Assembly: GCA_028686145.1 (NCBI GenBank)
Contig: JAQUCQ010000003.1
Location: 1,020 to 35,500, forward strand
Direction of reading: 5' to 3'
Length of the DNA: 34,481 bases
Source: Desulfuromonadaceae bacterium
GTDB taxonomy: Bacteria; Desulfobacterota; Desulfuromonadia; Geobacterales; Pseudopelobacteraceae
Positions 2,901 to 21,419 of the stretch are shown here, one piece after another. Position numbers and translations under genes: made by a program. The notes below the pieces were generated by a model that did no database searches, was not told the DNA's origin, and saw only the letters and a program-made list of their open reading frames with translations. How positions within the stretch are numbered: position 1 is the stretch's first letter; each line of letters opens with the position of its first letter.

Positions 2901-4562
2901 ATGGCAAAGGCGATGAAAGTCTCGGCAGGCAAAGCCGGACAGTATTACTATGAGAAAGACCCAATCTGTGCCAAAGAAGGACTTGGTAGTAATCTTACTT
3001 GGTTCGGAACAGGAGCTGAGACTCTCGGTTTATCTGGCAAGCTACACGAAGCAAACGGGCTGGAATCCTTTACCAACCTTCTTTATGGCTTGACCCCTGA
3101 CGGCAGCTCCCGTCTTGTCGGGCATGAGACCGGCGCAAAATCCCACGACAAGAATTCCGCAACCGATATTCCTCTCACGCTTTCAAAATCTTTTGGGATT
3201 GTTGCATTGGAAGACCCGCAGGCACGGGAAGCAATCAGCCGTGTATTCCATAATGTAGCTGAACGCATTGAAGACCACGTTTTCGGTAGACAGACTGTTG
3301 ATGGGGAGACCAGTCAGGTCAAGGGACAAATGATAGCTGTGCTTGCAGAACATTCTGTATCACGGGCAGGCGACACCCACCCACACGGACATTTGGTTAT
3401 CATGAACAATGTAATCAGACCTGACGGAACCCACAGCACTTTAGAAAATTTCGAGCTGATGAAAGCCCAGAGTAGTATTCAACAGGATTTGTATAACGAA
3501 GTGGCACGGGAATTTAAGTCCCTCGGTTATGCAATTGAAACCAGCAAGGTCGGAAACCATGTAATTCCAGAGGTCGCTGGCATTGATAAGGAGACCAGAG
3601 ACCTTTTCTCAAAACGCCACCACGAAATCAAAAATGCATCAGAATTGAAGGAAAGCCTGCGTGAGCGTATGCCGAACGCAAGCGATATCAGGATAGATAA
3701 CCTTGCCCAGTTGCTAACCAAAAATGCCAAAGACCAAAACCTGACTGAACGGGAGGTTGTTGATTCCCATAGAGAGCAAGTTTCTGCTGCCGGTAAAAGC
3801 TTACCAGTAATGATTAGCGAAGCAAAGGCAATGGGGCAGTCAGCAACACATGAGCAACACACAGCAGACGATTACGTCAGATTCGCAATTCAGGACGAGC
3901 AAGAAAAAGAAAGCGTCTTCTCCTCTCGGTCAATCATAAACAGCGCAATCCGTCTCGGCTGTGGCGACGTAATCCGGTCAGAAGTTGAAGAAGCATTTAA
4001 TAAAGCGGTTCAATCCGGGGAACTGGTCAAACTCGGCAGAGACAGCCGAGGGAATGAAGCCTTCTCAACCCCTCAAATGATTGCCATTGAAAAACAGATT
4101 GCCGTGGCAACCGTTGACGAGGCAAACAAGTTTTCCCCACTCCTCACACCAGAGCAGACTGAAAAGGCTATTCAAACCTTTCAAGCTGAAAAAGGCTGGC
4201 AGGTATCTGCAGGACAACGGAATGCAATTGAGACTGTTCTGCAAAGTTCAGGTCGCCTTGCAATCATTCAGGGCGATGCAGGAGCCGGAAAATCCACAGC
4301 CTTTGAGTGTATCAACAATGCCCTTAAAGATATTCCGGGGCTGGAAGTAAAAGGACTAGGCTTTCAGGGTAAAGCTTCCGCCGAACTGGAACGCAGCAGC
4401 GGTATCGCATCGCAAACCGTTCATTCATTTCTTGCAGAAAAAAAAACTCCTTCCCATCCGAGACATCTCGCCAGCTTTGGGTCGTTGATGAAGCCTCCAT
4501 GCTTGGCTCCGTTCAGCTTGGACAACTTTTGGAACGCGCTCAAGACCAAAACGCCCAAATAG
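2901..4562 (+). CDS. MobF (TrwC/TraI-like) conjugative relaxase, N-terminal part including helicase Walker A; frameshifted
   Basis: TrwC-type relaxase features (AGKAGQYYYEKDP, His cluster THPHGHLVIMNN), Walker A GDAGAGKST; ends in nonsense residues after A9 run. Confidence 0.88.
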   Translation: MAKAMKVSAGKAGQYYYEKDPICAKEGLGSNLTWFGTGAETLGLSGKLHEANGLESFTNLLYGLTPDGSSRLVGHETGAKSHDKNSATDIPLTLSKSFGIVALEDPQAREAISRVFHNVAERIEDHVFGRQTVDGETSQVKGQMIAVLAEHSVSRAGDTHPHGHLVIMNNVIRPDGTHSTLENFELMKAQSSIQQDLYNEVAREFKSLGYAIETSKVGNHVIPEVAGIDKETRDLFSKRHHEIKNASELKESLRERMPNASDIRIDNLAQLLTKNAKDQNLTEREVVDSHREQVSAAGKSLPVMISEAKAMGQSATHEQHTADDYVRFAIQDEQEKESVFSSRSIINSAIRLGCGDVIRSEVEEAFNKAVQSGELVKLGRDSRGNEAFSTPQMIAIEKQIAVATVDEANKFSPLLTPEQTEKAIQTFQAEKGWQVSAGQRNAIETVLQSSGRLAIIQGDAGAGKSTAFECINNALKDIPGLEVKGLGFQGKASAELERSSGIASQTVHSFLAEKKTPSHPRHLASFGSLMKPPCLAPFSLDNFWNALKTKTPK

Positions 4563-5938
4563 TTCTGGTCGGCGATAGCAAACAGATTTCTGCCATCAAT
4601 AGCGGCGACCACCACGGACGACTCCAGCAGTTTGAACTCGCCCAGACAGCACACATGACAGAAGTCAAACGTCAGAAATTTTATGACAAGGACGGCAACC
4701 AACTGCGTCCTGAGCGGGGAGATAATCTTGATAATGCAGTCAACCGTTATGCAGTGGAAATGGCTCAGGATTTAAAAATTGGAGACTTCAAATCCGCTTT
4801 TGAAAAACTTGAACAGGCTGGTCAAATCACAGAGTTTTCCGACCGGCAGGAGCGCCTTGATTATGTTGCACAAAGATATGTTGAGCACAACGACCAGCAG
4901 AACATTACAGTTATCACTGCTACCAATCGGGACAGGAAAGACGCAGTTGAACAAATCAGAGAATTACAGAAAGAGCATGGTCAAATCGGGCAGAGAGATT
5001 TCACCGTCAACGTCAATGACCCAGTCGCAACGTCTGGCGTGTTCCGCCGACTGGCGACCAGCTATGCAGTCGGTAATTTTGTCTCTCTCGGCAAAGACAT
5101 TGGAGAGTTAAAAGCCGGTTCTGTTCTGCGAATTGCAGATATTGACCGTGCAAATAATCAGCTTGTCTTTGACTACTCTGACCCAGCTAACCGGCTCAAG
5201 TTTGAGTACTCCAATACAGATAAGATTGCGGAACTTTCCACCAGTGCAGAGACCGGTACTATCAGCCTGAAACAGAATGGTGCCAGCCTTGCCCAGTTTC
5301 AGCAAGTTGAGACCAATTTTTCCGAGGGTGAAAAAGTCATGTTCTTGAAAAATGACAACACCGAGTACGGCAAAGCCAACGGCATAAAAAACGGGGTGCA
5401 AGGCTACATTCAGGAAATAAATGAGTCTGGCATCGCAAGGATAAAACTTGAAAACGGCAAAGAGATTGAACAGCAGCTTGAAGGTGCATATCTCACCAAC
5501 GGGCAGGCAATCACTATCAACAAATCACAGGGAATATCTGTTGAGCGCGCACTTGTTCTGACGCCAGCAGAAGGCGTCGGAGACCTGCTTAACTCCAAAT
5601 CCGGCTACACGGCTTTGACCCGCCATGAAAAAGAGGTTGAGGTAATAACCGACAACAAAGAAGAGCTTCTGGAGGCGGTCAGCCGGAATGCAGAAAAGAC
5701 CAGCACGCTGGATTACATGGACAAGGCTGAAATGCAGGAACTGCAATGCAGGGTACGGGAGAGTAGGCAGGAGCAGGAACCCCAAAATGAACTGACTGAA
5801 ATAGCGGAACGGGTTTCGGAGGGCGGAGAGCAGGAACCAGATAATAAACAGCAGCTGACCGACAGAGACCAAGAGCCAAGCGAGAAAACAGCCATCAGTA
5901 AAGATGAACAAGAACAGGAACTAGAATTATCCAAATGA
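4499..5938 (+). CDS. MobF relaxase C-terminal helicase part (continuation of previous ORF in -1 frame)
   Basis: The frame upstream reads PSETSRQLWVVDEASMLGSVQL (Walker B), then VLVGDSKQISAI and late TraI helicase motifs (AITINKSQGISVERALVL, YTALTRHEKEVEV). Confidence 0.85.
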   Translation: MLGSVQLGQLLERAQDQNAQIVLVGDSKQISAINSGDHHGRLQQFELAQTAHMTEVKRQKFYDKDGNQLRPERGDNLDNAVNRYAVEMAQDLKIGDFKSAFEKLEQAGQITEFSDRQERLDYVAQRYVEHNDQQNITVITATNRDRKDAVEQIRELQKEHGQIGQRDFTVNVNDPVATSGVFRRLATSYAVGNFVSLGKDIGELKAGSVLRIADIDRANNQLVFDYSDPANRLKFEYSNTDKIAELSTSAETGTISLKQNGASLAQFQQVETNFSEGEKVMFLKNDNTEYGKANGIKNGVQGYIQEINESGIARIKLENGKEIEQQLEGAYLTNGQAITINKSQGISVERALVLTPAEGVGDLLNSKSGYTALTRHEKEVEVITDNKEELLEAVSRNAEKTSTLDYMDKAEMQELQCRVRESRQEQEPQNELTEIAERVSEGGEQEPDNKQQLTDRDQEPSEKTAISKDEQEQELELSK

Positions 5939-11125: not shown

Positions 11126-12433
11126 ATGAATGGCATTGAAAGAATAGCACTTTTTGTTGATTTAGAAAATTTTGTTGGCTTCTGTTGTAAGCATGGTTTG
11201 GTGATTGACTTGGAGCCAGAGATTGAAAAATTAAAAGAACTAGGCAAGGTCACGGTACGAAAATCATTCGGAGATATCCACAAACTACCAATTGCACCCG
11301 ATGATAAAAAAGCTGTCAGAAAAATGCTTCAACAAAATCTAATTCAGCACGAAGATATTCCCTACCAGAATGAATTTAAGAACAGTGCCGATATCAGGCT
11401 AGTTATAGATGCATTATCACTGGTTTATCAAAATGAGCATATCGACAAAATAGCCGTGGTTGCTTCCGACCGTGATTATTTACCTTTGTTTGCCAAAATA
11501 AGGGAAATAGGAAAAGAAATAATTGGCATTGGTGGAAACTATGAAGCTACCCCAACTCTTATAGTTAAAGCCTGCGATTATTTTTTATACCATGAAAATC
11601 TTGTTAAAAATAACAAGCCTGCTCAAATAGAGCAGTCAGCCCAACCCAAATATATCGATATTAAAAATGACCTAAATAATCAGGAAGAAGAAATTATTCA
11701 GCACGAAGAACTAAGCTTCGAGCCAAGTAAAGCTTTTGAATTACTCTGTGAAGCTATTAAGTCTTTGGAGAGATATGGCGTAAATGAAATAGTTGGAGTT
11801 AAAGTTATCCATACAATGCGAAATATGCAACCAGACTTTGATTATGTCAATTATGGTTTTAAGAGCTTCAAAGACTTATGTTATGCAGCGGAAAATAAAG
11901 GGCTAATATCAATAAACCACAACGGTATCGTGTTTGAATTAAGTCTTAACAACGATATAGTACAAAAACAAGAATTAGTTATTGATTTACCTTATCTTAG
12001 AAGCTGGTTTTATGACAAAATTAAAGTTGATTTGCCAAATAATGATGAACGCAATGAAATTTACGAAAAGCTGCTGTCTCCAAATATATACGAAATTGAA
12101 TTGAGCTTAAATGAGCTTTCAAAAAACATAGCAGGTTCAATACATTCTATTAAAGCATCAAAAGCATGTTATAAAATTTTATTCAGTTTATATAAGAGCG
12201 GATGTTTTGATTGTATACCCGGACAAACACCATACAATCCAATCATACTTAAACTTAGCAATCAATATGAGGACTGTAATACACTTGATTACAAATTAAT
12301 CGAAAACACTATCAAAGTTTACAACCGCGAAAACAGTGTAAAAATTCCATCATCAATATGGAGCCAGTTTTTCTTTGAAACAGACAATAGCGAAGCTTTG
12401 ATTGACGATATTATTAAAGGCTTAGATAGATAA
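11126..12433 (+). CDS. NYN-domain (LabA/PIN-like) protein with OST-HTH/LOTUS-like domain
   Basis: N-term RIALFVDLENFVGF...IDKIAVVASDRDYLPLFAKIREIGKEIIGIG (NYN); middle SFEPSKAFELLCEAIKSLERYGVNEIVGVKVIHTMRNMQPDFDYVNYGFKSFKDLCYAAENKGLISI (LOTUS). Confidence 0.85.
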   Translation: MNGIERIALFVDLENFVGFCCKHGLVIDLEPEIEKLKELGKVTVRKSFGDIHKLPIAPDDKKAVRKMLQQNLIQHEDIPYQNEFKNSADIRLVIDALSLVYQNEHIDKIAVVASDRDYLPLFAKIREIGKEIIGIGGNYEATPTLIVKACDYFLYHENLVKNNKPAQIEQSAQPKYIDIKNDLNNQEEEIIQHEELSFEPSKAFELLCEAIKSLERYGVNEIVGVKVIHTMRNMQPDFDYVNYGFKSFKDLCYAAENKGLISINHNGIVFELSLNNDIVQKQELVIDLPYLRSWFYDKIKVDLPNNDERNEIYEKLLSPNIYEIELSLNELSKNIAGSIHSIKASKACYKILFSLYKSGCFDCIPGQTPYNPIILKLSNQYEDCNTLDYKLIENTIKVYNRENSVKIPSSIWSQFFFETDNSEALIDDIIKGLDR

Positions 12434-15002: not shown

Positions 15003-15248
15003 TTAATATCTGCTCGAATAGTGAGAAGAGTGTGAAGAATGTGAAGAATGTGAGCTGTGTGAATAGTGCCCAGCCTCTTCCATGTTGGGTCTGAACTGGT
15101 TGCTGGCATGGTCTAAAACAAGCGGTGAACTTTCGGTAACACCAGATTGATAAATCTGGGTTGAAGCTTGTGAAGCAGTGTCAGTGAATCCAATTACAGC
15201 TGCAAGTGATGCACACACGGTTAAAAGCTTTCTAAATCCAATCGCCAT
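15003..15248 (-). CDS. hxsA: His-Xaa-Ser repeat peptide (HxsA-type precursor)
   Basis: Signal-like MAIGFRKLLTVCASLAAVIGFTDTASQAS; C-term HYSHSSHSSHSSHSSHYSSRY; SD gggaggtg before ATG at 15248; adjacent to hxsC/B/D. Confidence 0.85.
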   Translation of the reverse strand: MAIGFRKLLTVCASLAAVIGFTDTASQASTQIYQSGVTESSPLVLDHASNQFRPNMEEAGHYSHSSHSSHSSHSSHYSSRY

Positions 15249-15340
15249 TTCAACACCTCCCTTCAAGTATTTTAATTTTATTAAATTGAACTCATTTATA
15301 GAATGTAATTACCATATTTCAAATAAAAATCAAGCGAGAA

Positions 15341-16468
15341 TTAAATTATTTTGCTAACCGTTGGGCTAACAAACTTACCAGAAGTGCTAAAAAAGCCACA
15401 ACACTCTGATATTTTTATACAACCATCACAAGCAGGTAGATAGTCATTTTTCCAGTCCGAAATGGATTGACGAGCAAATAGCCAAGATGCGGGAGTGAGA
15501 AGGCAATAAGGAATATTGTAAATTGAAGTATTCAGGAACGCTCTGTGAAGAATTTTAGAAGCATTTTCAAGCTGTTTTTTATATTCAGCAGGGTCAATCC
15601 ATACCTTATCGTAGTTGCTTCTTGCATAACCTGTTATTTCCATACCCATGAAAGCAACATGGTAGACGAACGGAAAGTTCCGATATAAAAAATATGCAAA
15701 CTCTTCAAGTCGCCCATAGTTCAATTTGTTTATAACGTGCCTGATTTCAACTTTTTGTCTGAATTTTGCGAGATTGTAGAGACCTTGAATAGTCTTTTGA
15801 AAGCTACTTTTGCTACCAGATATTTCATCATTCAATTCCTCTATATCTGAATGCAATGAAATACAGATAAGGCAATTAGAAAGGTTTACAGAAGAAAATT
15901 CTTTTGCAAAATTGAAATCAGAAAAACTCCTTCCATTAGTTAGCAACATTACTAATGCGTGGTCAAACCTTTCTTTTATTTTCTTTAATATATTTAAAAA
16001 TTTCTCACCTAGTAATGTCGGTTCACCACCTGAAATACATATTTTTGAAATTTTGCTTGGTTCAAGTCTATCCAGAAGCTCCATAGCGATATAGTACAAC
16101 TCATCGTCGTGCTTCTGTGGAGGTTGTGGACACATAAGACATCTACAATCACACGAAGCAGTAGGAAATATGGTGTTGCTATCAGATTTGGTGTCCCATA
16201 CAGTAGTTAATAATCCATTGTTTCCTATGTGTATTATGTCACCTTCATTTAAATCAGCTAAATCTTTATTTTCAATTATGAAAACAGATTTAGCTTTATC
16301 AGATACGTGTTTATTGTCTGTTATTAAAACAGAATATCCGAATGGGCTAGAAGATATTCCTGACCCAACGTAAGCTTTTCCTCTACGATTAAATACTGTT
16401 TTATTGTATGTTACTTCCGCAATAATATTTTTATCAATATTTTTTAGCTCACCTTTAAATACCTTCAA
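15341..16468 (-). CDS. hxsC: His-Xaa-Ser system radical SAM maturase HxsC
   Basis: CxxxCxxC-type site SCDCRCLMCPQPP, ISGGEPTLLG; position between hxsA and hxsB. Confidence 0.87.
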   Translation of the reverse strand: MKVFKGELKNIDKNIIAEVTYNKTVFNRRGKAYVGSGISSSPFGYSVLITDNKHVSDKAKSVFIIENKDLADLNEGDIIHIGNNGLLTTVWDTKSDSNTIFPTASCDCRCLMCPQPPQKHDDELYYIAMELLDRLEPSKISKICISGGEPTLLGEKFLNILKKIKERFDHALVMLLTNGRSFSDFNFAKEFSSVNLSNCLICISLHSDIEELNDEISGSKSSFQKTIQGLYNLAKFRQKVEIRHVINKLNYGRLEEFAYFLYRNFPFVYHVAFMGMEITGYARSNYDKVWIDPAEYKKQLENASKILHRAFLNTSIYNIPYCLLTPASWLFARQSISDWKNDYLPACDGCIKISECCGFFSTSGKFVSPTVSKII

Positions 16469-17912
16469 GGCGAACCTCCTTTAACGGACGTCTCGTAATC
16501 CAAGCCCAGAAAACATCCAATGTATCGCTATCTTTTTCTTTCAGCTTTTTAAACAGAATGTCGAATATAGCCATATTTTTTTCACAAAAACTACTTCCGG
16601 GTCTTTTCCCTATTAAATCACCATATTCAAGATAATTTCTGATGGGGTCTGCTCCACAATATGTTTTATACATACATGTAGAACATCCCGGCATAATTTC
16701 TACAATCGACTTTGATACAATTTCACGTAATACCGAACCACCAAATATCTCATCATAAGAATCAACAAATACGTTTCCCATTTTAAATTTAGTATCACCC
16801 ATTCGTGCTAACATTCTTGCTTCATCAGCTGGGTAAACATCACCATTATAATCATAAATTACGCCAGCTATGCCTGCACCAGAAGGAGATTGTAAATCAA
16901 CAAAACCAGTTGAAAATGGTGTAAGTATCCTTGATAAAAGAAGTGTAGTAAAATATTCTGAGAAATCTACACCGTTAAGATTAAGTTCGATAATGTAGTC
17001 AAGCGTCTCTTCAAATTTTTCTGTAAAGCGTTTTATTGAATAGCCCAAGTCTGTTGAATTTTCAGCAGCAAGTCCATAAGGATTTAAACTTCTAAGAAAA
17101 ATTCCGTTAAACCCAAGCCTAATATATTCGTCTACTACTTCATTCATGTTCTCAATATTATCAATAGTCGTCGTCATTAAAGCCGAGACTGCGTCATAAC
17201 CACATATACTTCTGGCTTCTTTGAGCTTGTCCAAGAAAATATCATATGTACCAACGCCACTTCTTAATATCCTATTTTTATCATGCAGATACTTAGGACC
17301 ATCTAATGACGTAGATATATAAACACCGTTTTCTTTAAGATATAAGAGCTTGTCGGTGGATATATTTGTGAGATTAGTGCAAATAACAAATTCGAGTTTT
17401 TTCTTTTTGCTTTTGTTAATCAATTTTGCGTGTTCAATAGCACCTGTAAGTGCATTCCAATTTAAACTTGGTTCTCCACCTTGTAATTCAATTTTTATTG
17501 AATTACTTGGTGAATTAAAAGCCATTTCAACAGATTTTTTAGCAACTTCTGGTGACATATCATATTGCATTGCTGTATCGCTTTCAGCGGATACTTGGCA
17601 GTATTTGCAATCTTGATTGCACCTAACAGTTAATACCATCATATGCAAGGTGGTAAATGAAGATATGAAATGTTTTCTTGTTCGATAGCGTGTAGCTATC
17701 ATGTTTACGGCATTGGATAAATCACCAGTAACCATAAACTGTTTGCTTTTTAAAGAATTTATATCTGGCGAATTAGTGGTAAAATCACCTTTAATAAAAT
17801 TGTTCAGCTCAATATAGTCAATAAAGTGATATTCACCACTTTCATTTACCATTAAATATTTGTCTTCAAATCTTCCAAATTGAAATGGCATTATATGATA
17901 ATTATATTGCAC
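16455..17912 (-). CDS. hxsB: His-Xaa-Ser system radical SAM maturase HxsB
   Basis: TLHMMVLTVRCNQDCKYCQVSAESD..., IKIELQGGEPSLNW, C-terminal SPASM-like Cys cluster CSTCMYKTYCGADP. Confidence 0.9.
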   Translation of the reverse strand: MQYNYHIMPFQFGRFEDKYLMVNESGEYHFIDYIELNNFIKGDFTTNSPDINSLKSKQFMVTGDLSNAVNMIATRYRTRKHFISSFTTLHMMVLTVRCNQDCKYCQVSAESDTAMQYDMSPEVAKKSVEMAFNSPSNSIKIELQGGEPSLNWNALTGAIEHAKLINKSKKKKLEFVICTNLTNISTDKLLYLKENGVYISTSLDGPKYLHDKNRILRSGVGTYDIFLDKLKEARSICGYDAVSALMTTTIDNIENMNEVVDEYIRLGFNGIFLRSLNPYGLAAENSTDLGYSIKRFTEKFEETLDYIIELNLNGVDFSEYFTTLLLSRILTPFSTGFVDLQSPSGAGIAGVIYDYNGDVYPADEARMLARMGDTKFKMGNVFVDSYDEIFGGSVLREIVSKSIVEIMPGCSTCMYKTYCGADPIRNYLEYGDLIGKRPGSSFCEKNMAIFDILFKKLKEKDSDTLDVFWAWITRRPLKEVRLEGI

Positions 17913-18195
17913 GATTATCTATTTCCTGTTTCAAATTAGTGATAGGCTTAAATGCATGTTCAACGATTAGTTCCCTAACTTTACCTGCCTTGCTTTCTAA
18001 TTCATAACGTAATTGCTCATCTAAAATATCATCTAATATTTTCTTCTTTAATAAGTCAGCTTTATCTGTTGGTTCTAGCATTAAAAACCAGCAAAACTCA
18101 TTTTCTTCAACATGTATATTTTTATTCAGATATTTATAAAGGACGCCACGGACTACATCAGCCTGATAAAGACTTTTACTTACCTCAATTTTCAT
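17902..18195 (-). CDS. hxsD: His-Xaa-Ser system protein HxsD
   Basis: 97-aa ORF overlapping hxsB start; DDILDEQLRYELESKAGKVRELIVEHAF resembles HxsD. Confidence 0.82.
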   Translation of the reverse strand: MKIEVSKSLYQADVVRGVLYKYLNKNIHVEENEFCWFLMLEPTDKADLLKKKILDDILDEQLRYELESKAGKVRELIVEHAFKPITNLKQEIDNRAI

Positions 18196-19596: not shown

Positions 19597-20919
19597 CTAA
19601 ACAGAATTACCTTTTTGAAAAATCACTTCTATTTTTTCACTTTCTTGCTCGATTCGCGCTAATAGCCTGTTCCACAAAGGGCGAATCTGCTTTCTAATAG
19701 ATTCTGAGTCCATTATTTTTGCAGCTTTATAAGCATACGATATAAAGTTTCTTCTGCCAACATAACCATATTTCTTGTAAAGTTTACTTCTGTAAAACTT
19801 AGAAGGTGGTAAACCATGTTTTAACCTAATTTTATCAGAATTCAGTTTTGCTTTTCCATAAAGATAAACTGAAGATTTCATGCGTTCAGAATACCGTGAC
19901 AGCGCTGCATTTCTAATCAAAATCCTTTGCCCATCAAACAAGAAGCCCAGATATTGCAGTGGTTTATCAGATATCAAATTACCAAAAGAATCAGTATGAA
20001 ATGTTCTAATTTCTTTTTTGTTTTGGTTGATTTCTAAATAATATTCGCTGATTTTCTTCAGAAGACAATCAATAATCTCATCTTTATTATTTACTGGAAC
20101 AATACAAAGTATATCATCGCAGTATCTAAGATACTTACCATCAACTGCATCCATTAGCTGATTTACTTCAGAATCAAATTTAATAAGGTAAATATTCGAT
20201 AAAAGAGCACTTATAGGTGAGCCTTGAGGTATGCCTTTATTTTGCTTGTTTTGATTGATTATACCGGCACGTCTTACTGTTTTTCTGAACGTATCTGAAG
20301 AACAAATCTTATGTCTTCCATTCCTAGGATTATTCAAGGGTATTTTTAGCAGTTTATAAAGCTCAGTCTTATTAACTTCCGAATATCTAGTTATTGATTT
20401 GTAAATGTTAAAATGGTCAGGAGGCAAGCTATTGGTTTCCAATATATATTGCCATGACTTCTTTAATTGTAAATGATTTAGTTCATCAAAGTATTTTGTA
20501 ATATCAAGCCCGATTGCTACACAACTTTTTCTTGACTTTATTTCATCAAAAGCCATTTTAGCAAAGTCTATATTCGATTTACCTAATTTTCTGAAAGCTA
20601 ATATATTTTTATCTAAGTTAAGTTCCTTTAGTTTAATCTCATACTCATTAGATAACAACTGCGAATAATAAGCATATATATAAGAATCAACATGAGATGA
20701 ATACGATATTTTTCTATTCTTTATGACAGTCTCGAGTTTATTTGTTTCTTTATTAAATTTAAATTTTCTAGTTTTTATTATGAAATTAATTGAGGGATAA
20801 AACGGATGGGATGCAATTTTGTCTGGTGATTCTACAAGCTTGATTGCGTTGTCAATAGAAATAGGCTGGTCGAAATGTAAATATGTTCTTTTTTTATGCC
20901 AGCTATATTCTAGTAGCAT
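19597..20919 (-). CDS. drt2: Antiviral reverse transcriptase, DRT2 (UG2)-like
   Basis: RT domain with PQGSPISALLSNIYL and YCDDILCIV; N-term YLHFDQPISIDNAIKLVESPDKIASHPFYPSINF matches the DRT2 family as recalled; solitary RT with ~290-nt structured upstream region. Confidence 0.82.
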   Translation of the reverse strand: MLLEYSWHKKRTYLHFDQPISIDNAIKLVESPDKIASHPFYPSINFIIKTRKFKFNKETNKLETVIKNRKISYSSHVDSYIYAYYSQLLSNEYEIKLKELNLDKNILAFRKLGKSNIDFAKMAFDEIKSRKSCVAIGLDITKYFDELNHLQLKKSWQYILETNSLPPDHFNIYKSITRYSEVNKTELYKLLKIPLNNPRNGRHKICSSDTFRKTVRRAGIINQNKQNKGIPQGSPISALLSNIYLIKFDSEVNQLMDAVDGKYLRYCDDILCIVPVNNKDEIIDCLLKKISEYYLEINQNKKEIRTFHTDSFGNLISDKPLQYLGFLFDGQRILIRNAALSRYSERMKSSVYLYGKAKLNSDKIRLKHGLPPSKFYRSKLYKKYGYVGRRNFISYAYKAAKIMDSESIRKQIRPLWNRLLARIEQESEKIEVIFQKGNSV

Positions 20920-21213
20920 TCAAAATGCCTTTGTTTAAGATAATAGCCAACCGAGAGGGAGTTAGATGGCGGCAGTCTACAATCTCCACTCTCGGCTAAA
21001 CCGGAACGATAAATTCGTTCATTTCACCGACAATAGTCGATTTAGCCGCGTATGCTAGAAATGATGTACAATACAATCAGGGAGACAATAAATATGTTAT
21101 ACAGCAACACATTCAGCGTCTGGCGTCTGCTGTTCACAGTTACGATGAAACTGCTACTTGACAGACTGCTGCATTTCCCTCGCCCCATTTGCTAGGCAAG
21201 GCAGTTTATATTT
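20920..21213 (-). ncRNA. Putative DRT2 template ncRNA
   Basis: Noncoding, densely paired: CCTTGCC/GGCGAGG, CAGTT/AACTG, ACAGCA/TGCTGT, three-way junction CGGCTAAA/TTTAGCCG enclosing CGAC/GTCG and GAACGA/TCGTTC, CCGAGAGtGGAG/CTCCCTCTCGG; weak -35 CTTAAA and -10 TATAAT upstream (21220-21225). Confidence 0.7.
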
Positions 21214-21419
21214 GAACTTATTATAAAAAAACTCAAGCTAAATTTAAGCACGAATCTTTAAAAGGAAGTCTTCCAATAAGCGATTTCAAACTTCTTTAAA
21301 GAATTTTTCAGGGATATACCAAAAGTAGATACCAACCTGATAAACGTCTTTATTTATTAAGTATTGCACGTTTCGTGTCTGTTTCATCCTTCATTGCGCT
21401 TCATTCTGTACTTCCACCG

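Follow-up and report, generated by a model that had tools for sequence, protein, structure and literature searches.

The window (the whole stretch of DNA analysed here, 34,481 nucleotides) carries on its minus strand a reverse transcriptase (RT) gene preceded by a structured non-coding RNA. It lies on a 35.5-kb contig encoding a MobF relaxase, a TraD-like coupling protein and ParA. A preliminary description of the sequence had called this DNA a plasmid, which these three genes make likely, but the ends of the contig do not overlap and it does not close. The relaxase, which is MobF/TraI-like, is encoded by two ORFs that overlap and lie in different frames (2901-4562 and 4499-5938, together 2901-5938 on the plus strand), the split being either a natural frameshift or an assembly error. 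Elsewhere the window encodes a protein with a NYN (putative nuclease) domain (11126-12433, plus strand) and a His-Xaa-Ser peptide system (15003-18195, minus strand), in which the HxsB and HxsC radical SAM maturases and HxsD scored above the cut-off and an HxsA-like His-Ser repeat peptide below it. The RT locus itself is made up of the following features, in window coordinates.

19597-20919, minus strand: Drt2 reverse transcriptase gene (440 aa; catalytic D139, D268 and D269), from profile, PDB and residue-mapping evidence
20926-21201, minus strand: DRT2 non-coding RNA (z of -3.6, RT-12 match inside), its ends placed by comparison with the Klebsiella RNA of 280-281 nt
21178-21201, minus strand: 5' handle hairpin, CCUUGCCU / GGGCGAGG (MFE and centroid fold; homologs have a hairpin in this position ahead of the template)
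21171-21174, minus strand: left arm AUGC of an SL2-like stem, with partner GCAU at 21055-21052 (from the sequence)
21167-21169, minus strand: jump triplet 1, GCA (ACA-1 in Klebsiella)
21056-21169, minus strand: predicted template, 114 nt or 38 codons long and equal to one repeat unit, from the junction promoter, identical flanking triplets and stop-free frame
21053-21055, minus strand: jump triplet 2, GCA (ACA-2 in Klebsiella)
21058-21062, minus strand: predicted primer-binding site AUUUC (AUAUC in Klebsiella), from the register with PMC12039810 and homologs
21158-21163, plus strand: -35 element TTGACA of the cDNA sense strand, to be used only where two repeats join
21067-21072, plus strand: -10 element TACAAT of the cDNA sense strand, separated by 17 bp from the -35 in the repeat before it
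21079-21084, plus strand: Shine-Dalgarno-like AGGGAG for neo (from the sequence)
21094-21096, plus strand: predicted ATG start of neo, lying in the frame without stops
20942-21057, minus strand: 3' scaffold, Rfam RT-12 (RF03016; 74.6 bits, E 5e-11)
21045-21049, minus strand: pseudoknot strand 1, GCGGC (97.4% of cells paired, compensatory changes)
20969-20973, minus strand: pseudoknot strand 2, GCCGC (covariation across loci)

The earlier reading of the ORF at 19597-20919 as an RT of the DRT2/UG2 family, with YCDD and PQGSP motifs and the N-terminus YLHFDQPISIDNAIKL in its translation, was correct. The PADLOC search proposed at that stage returned Drt2 (PDLC02173) with 589 bits and an E-value of 1.4e-177, the next-best PADLOC class being UG17 with 82.7 bits, and the NCBIfam Drt2 model NF041746 gave 545.5 bits, above its curated cut-off of 390. 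Likewise, the best solved relatives are Drt2 structures (PDB 9c0i, E 4.2e-125). A retron, a group II intron or another UG/Abi RT accompanied by an unrelated structured leader would be the obvious alternative, and the shared RT core does produce weak matches of that sort, to UG17 and to group II introns (73.8 bits, cut-off 300); retron St85 reached 43.6 bits (cut-off 235), and neither retron nor group II models were the best match. Over its whole length, the protein scores seven times as high for Drt2 as for other classes; RNA and template, described below, fit DRT2 too. Given the Drt2 profile scores, the RT-12 match and the tree position, another RT class is refuted and hardly conceivable.

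The protein had also been called divergent, and indeed it is 48% identical to Klebsiella Drt2 over 415 aligned residues and 51% identical to the nearest relative found. Its catalytic triad is intact, D139, D268 and D269 mapping to Klebsiella D140, D269 and D270, and 9 of 9 primer-duplex residues mapped with the help of PMC12596737 are conserved. Differences from Klebsiella occur at several RNA-contact residues (K377R, K378S, H386Y, S195P and R204H). An 86-row tree of Drt2 relatives sets the window RT inside a 58-row clade (support 99/95) together with Photorhabdus and Enterobacteriaceae systems, a placement that holds for the clade and not for an exact neighbour. By its protein sequence, therefore, the window locus belongs to the neo-making DRT2 clade; in membership it is an ordinary DRT2, an addition to a known family and no new kind. 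Because DNA-level relatives are nearly absent (one plasmid match of 134 bases, and none in E. coli genomes), the comparison was made at the protein level. The other genomes sampled in the genus lack a strong Drt2 match, a sporadic occurrence that is as expected for a mobile defence gene.

No gene of its own was found in the minus-strand stretch upstream of the RT. The preliminary description had placed there a non-coding, hairpin-dense RNA at 20920-21213. Its non-coding and structured nature held, while its 5' end at 21213 did not: the conserved 5' hairpin, and the roughly 28 nt that precede the template in Klebsiella, put the start probably near 21201-21197, by analogy with homologs. The fold of 20926-21201, with -88.3 kcal/mol, beats 200 of 200 dinucleotide shuffles, whose mean is -71.2 (z of -3.6). 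Within it, the 3' scaffold fits the whole 117-position RT-12 model, well above the gathering score of 44.2. This model covers neither the template nor the 5' handle, and at the jump-2 triplet its consensus is UAACA where the window has UAGCA.

The search for conserved upstream structure suggested earlier thus found the RT-12 family, and it also found compensatory changes across 31 loci. The structure tested there was named by hand: the GCGGC/GCCGC pseudoknot, a long stem, and a short stem enclosing the 3' strand of the pseudoknot. In it, 86.9% of cells are paired and both-sided changes occur in 65 cells, compared to 21.5 in shuffles; none of 500 shuffles scored as high, and the signal was clearly weaker once the structure was slid by 1-3 columns. 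Within the pseudoknot itself, two pairs change from C-G to U-A, and changes from G-C to A-U also occur. Part of this support derives from the relatedness of the loci.

In the DRT2 systems described in PMC12039810 and PMC11100668, two ACA triplets bound the template in the RNA, and in the cDNA repeats a -35 and a -10 are joined across the junction at 17 bp while the frame stays open. Going past the preliminary description, we located a predicted template and a predicted neo in the window that follow this plan. When the 114-nt cDNA is concatenated, TTGACA-17-TACAAT appears at every junction, so the sigma-70-type promoter of the predicted neo is assembled only there. The unit is divisible by three, and one cDNA-sense frame (frame 2) runs through the junction for 38 codons free of stops, with AGGGAG nine bases ahead of an in-frame ATG. 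The endless-frame unit of the window Neo is predicted to be EMMYNTIRETINMLYSNTFSVWRLLFTVTMKLLLDRLL, and it carries the family pattern xMxYN...LDxLL. One frame is open in the RNA sense as well. From the primer-binding site AUUUC, the RNA 3' end primer is predicted to be GAAAT.

How readily such a combination arises by chance was gauged from 5000 dinucleotide shuffles. Promoter, length and open frame occurred together, at any offset, in 385 of them; identical triplets in addition reduced this to 33, and identical triplets with an adjoining SL2-type stem to 2. Two overlapping -10 candidates are present in the template (TACAATACAAT), of which one only yields matching triplets and an in-frame repeat, and the choice between them relied on the expected outcome. 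The neighbouring -10 register would give a repeat of 109 nt and was rejected, being indivisible by three and having mismatched triplets.

The window locus thus resembles Klebsiella pneumoniae DRT2 (PDB 9c0i; PMC12039810, PMC11100668, PMC12596737) in its full-length RT, catalytic triad and primer-duplex residues, and also in the RT-12 scaffold with its pseudoknot, the matching flanking triplets, the 17-bp junction promoter and the endless frame. Unlike it, the window has GCA triplets instead of ACA, a repeat of 114 nt instead of 120, the primer-binding site AUUUC instead of AUAUC, and a different Neo sequence.

Transcription of the operon is a weaker point. The -10 named earlier, TATAAT at 21225-21220, is possible, as is TATAAA at 21210-21205, but a sigma-70 scan found no site with at least 9 of 12 matches, so that the operon promoter is weak by consensus. 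This, and the sporadic occurrence in the genus with no strong Drt2 match in its other sampled genomes, would suit a DRT2 locus that is carried as plasmid cargo in a decayed or silent state, right in family and no longer working. However, the 440-aa ORF is intact, the active site and RNA structure are conserved and the neo frame is open, and we regard decay or silencing as very improbable.

The reading that we favor, with a probability of roughly 0.92, takes the locus for a complete anti-phage DRT2 that makes neo as the Klebsiella one does. RT family, RNA family and structure, template geometry, junction promoter and endless frame are established at the level of sequence, whereas for cDNA synthesis, phage triggering, translation, toxicity and defence we infer from the tested Klebsiella system. 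By that model, the RT would bind the upstream pseudoknotted RNA and, upon phage infection, copy the 114-nt template (21169-21056). The nascent cDNA 3' end TGC, copied from GCA-1 at the template 5' end, would re-anneal to GCA-2 just past the template 3' end, and copying would then restart to give head-to-tail repeats of 114 bp. Each junction would unite TTGACA and TACAAT, 17 bp apart, allowing transcription from the concatemer only. The concatemer mRNA would be an endless frame, and its Neo protein would halt growth of the infected cell. The GCA triplets in place of the published ACA, the changed RNA-contact residues, the weak operon promoter and the two overlapping -10 candidates were counted against this explanation.

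The concatemeric cDNA of a DRT2 might also act as DNA, or by some other route that does not pass through an encoded Neo. PMC11100668 describes neo as harder to annotate where DRT2 clades are more divergent, and DRT9 and DRT10, two related systems, are described as making repetitive or homopolymer DNA products (PMC12483538, PMC12632851), both of which lend this idea some weight. Here, however, the locus lies inside the neo-making clade, and its repeat is stop-free, divisible by three and provided with a Shine-Dalgarno sequence and an ATG; a product acting without Neo is thus very improbable.

Comparison with relatives bears on the neo-making reading and on the jump in particular. Of 80 fetched Drt2 loci, 56 remained once template bounds were chosen solely from the geometry of the junction promoter and the presence of the pseudoknot motif. 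Repeat length is divisible by three in 47 of these 56, and 44 of the 47 are stop-free in the same frame. The flanking triplets are identical in 28 loci, pairable through one G-T wobble (ACA/ATA, ACA/GCA) in 17, and mismatched at the first-choice register in 11. Among the last, a neighbouring register matches in the window and in L016, L024, L057 and L058 (our locus labels), a choice made knowing the model. The types found are ACA/ACA, GCA/GCA (window), ATA/ATA (L054), TTG/TTG (L057, L060), GCT/GCT (L058) and wobble pairs. In Pseudomonas, DRT2 loci whose repeat measures 132 nt (L017 and L032 among them) share the GCA jump-2, endless frame and promoter geometry with the window; their jump-1 is ACA, leaving one G-T wobble, whereas GCA/GCA in the window pairs perfectly. 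The start of RT-12 is an independent check of the template register at the sequence level, since it lies precisely 2 nt ahead of the predicted jump-2 triplet in the window and in L012, L017, L021, L030, L041, L045 and L054. This variety of triplets supports re-annealing as the proposed jump. The main texts of PMC12039810 and PMC11100668, supplements aside, make no mention of triplets other than ACA, and priority is not claimed. A universal SL2 stem was considered and rejected, a compatible left arm being present in only 23 of 35 loci, against a background of 16.4 and at most 22 in shuffles.

Some relatives depart from the endless frame. Upstream of the Drt2 gene, five Pseudomonas loci forming one clade (L045, L046, L050, L052 and L112; 100/99) have repeats of 125 or 131 nt, all 3n-1. 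Starting from an ATG that has a GGAGG site, a frame reads across the junction and, after 42 or 44 codons, ends in a TGA overlapping the next ATG (ATGA). In the Thiotrichales locus L047, the 108-nt repeat upstream of the Drt2 gene holds a 35-codon neo frame with TAA directly before ATG. A predicted neo that is terminated and coupled, and not never-ending, is for the Pseudomonas clade and L047 a lead and not a result. A 42-codon open run has an estimated chance of about 0.14 and is not rare, so that the case for termination is carried by the family motif spanning the junction, by the start site and by a length change of 6 nt that preserves 3n-1. Insertion or deletion of 1 nt at the junction was rejected as the origin of the 125-nt repeats, since either brings a stop soon past the junction. 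Across four Pseudomonas neo frames, changes are synonymous in 4 codons and non-synonymous in 7. In Nitratidesulfovibrio (L005), ACT/ACT triplets match and the predicted repeat of 145 nt is not divisible by three, with no obvious neo. A broader proposition, to which we give even odds, is that the jump is set by the flanking triplets pairing with each other rather than by ACA as such, and that the endless frame is itself evolvable, the Pseudomonas 3n-1 clade having a terminated Neo, ATGA and tandem coupled genes.

The DRT2 mechanism rests mainly on one Klebsiella system, to which the window locus adds a distant member. Its GCA/GCA pair is in effect a compensatory double mutant made by nature, and it supports the proposed re-annealing jump. 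The Pseudomonas 3n-1 loci, in turn, put in question whether being never-ending is a necessary property of neo.
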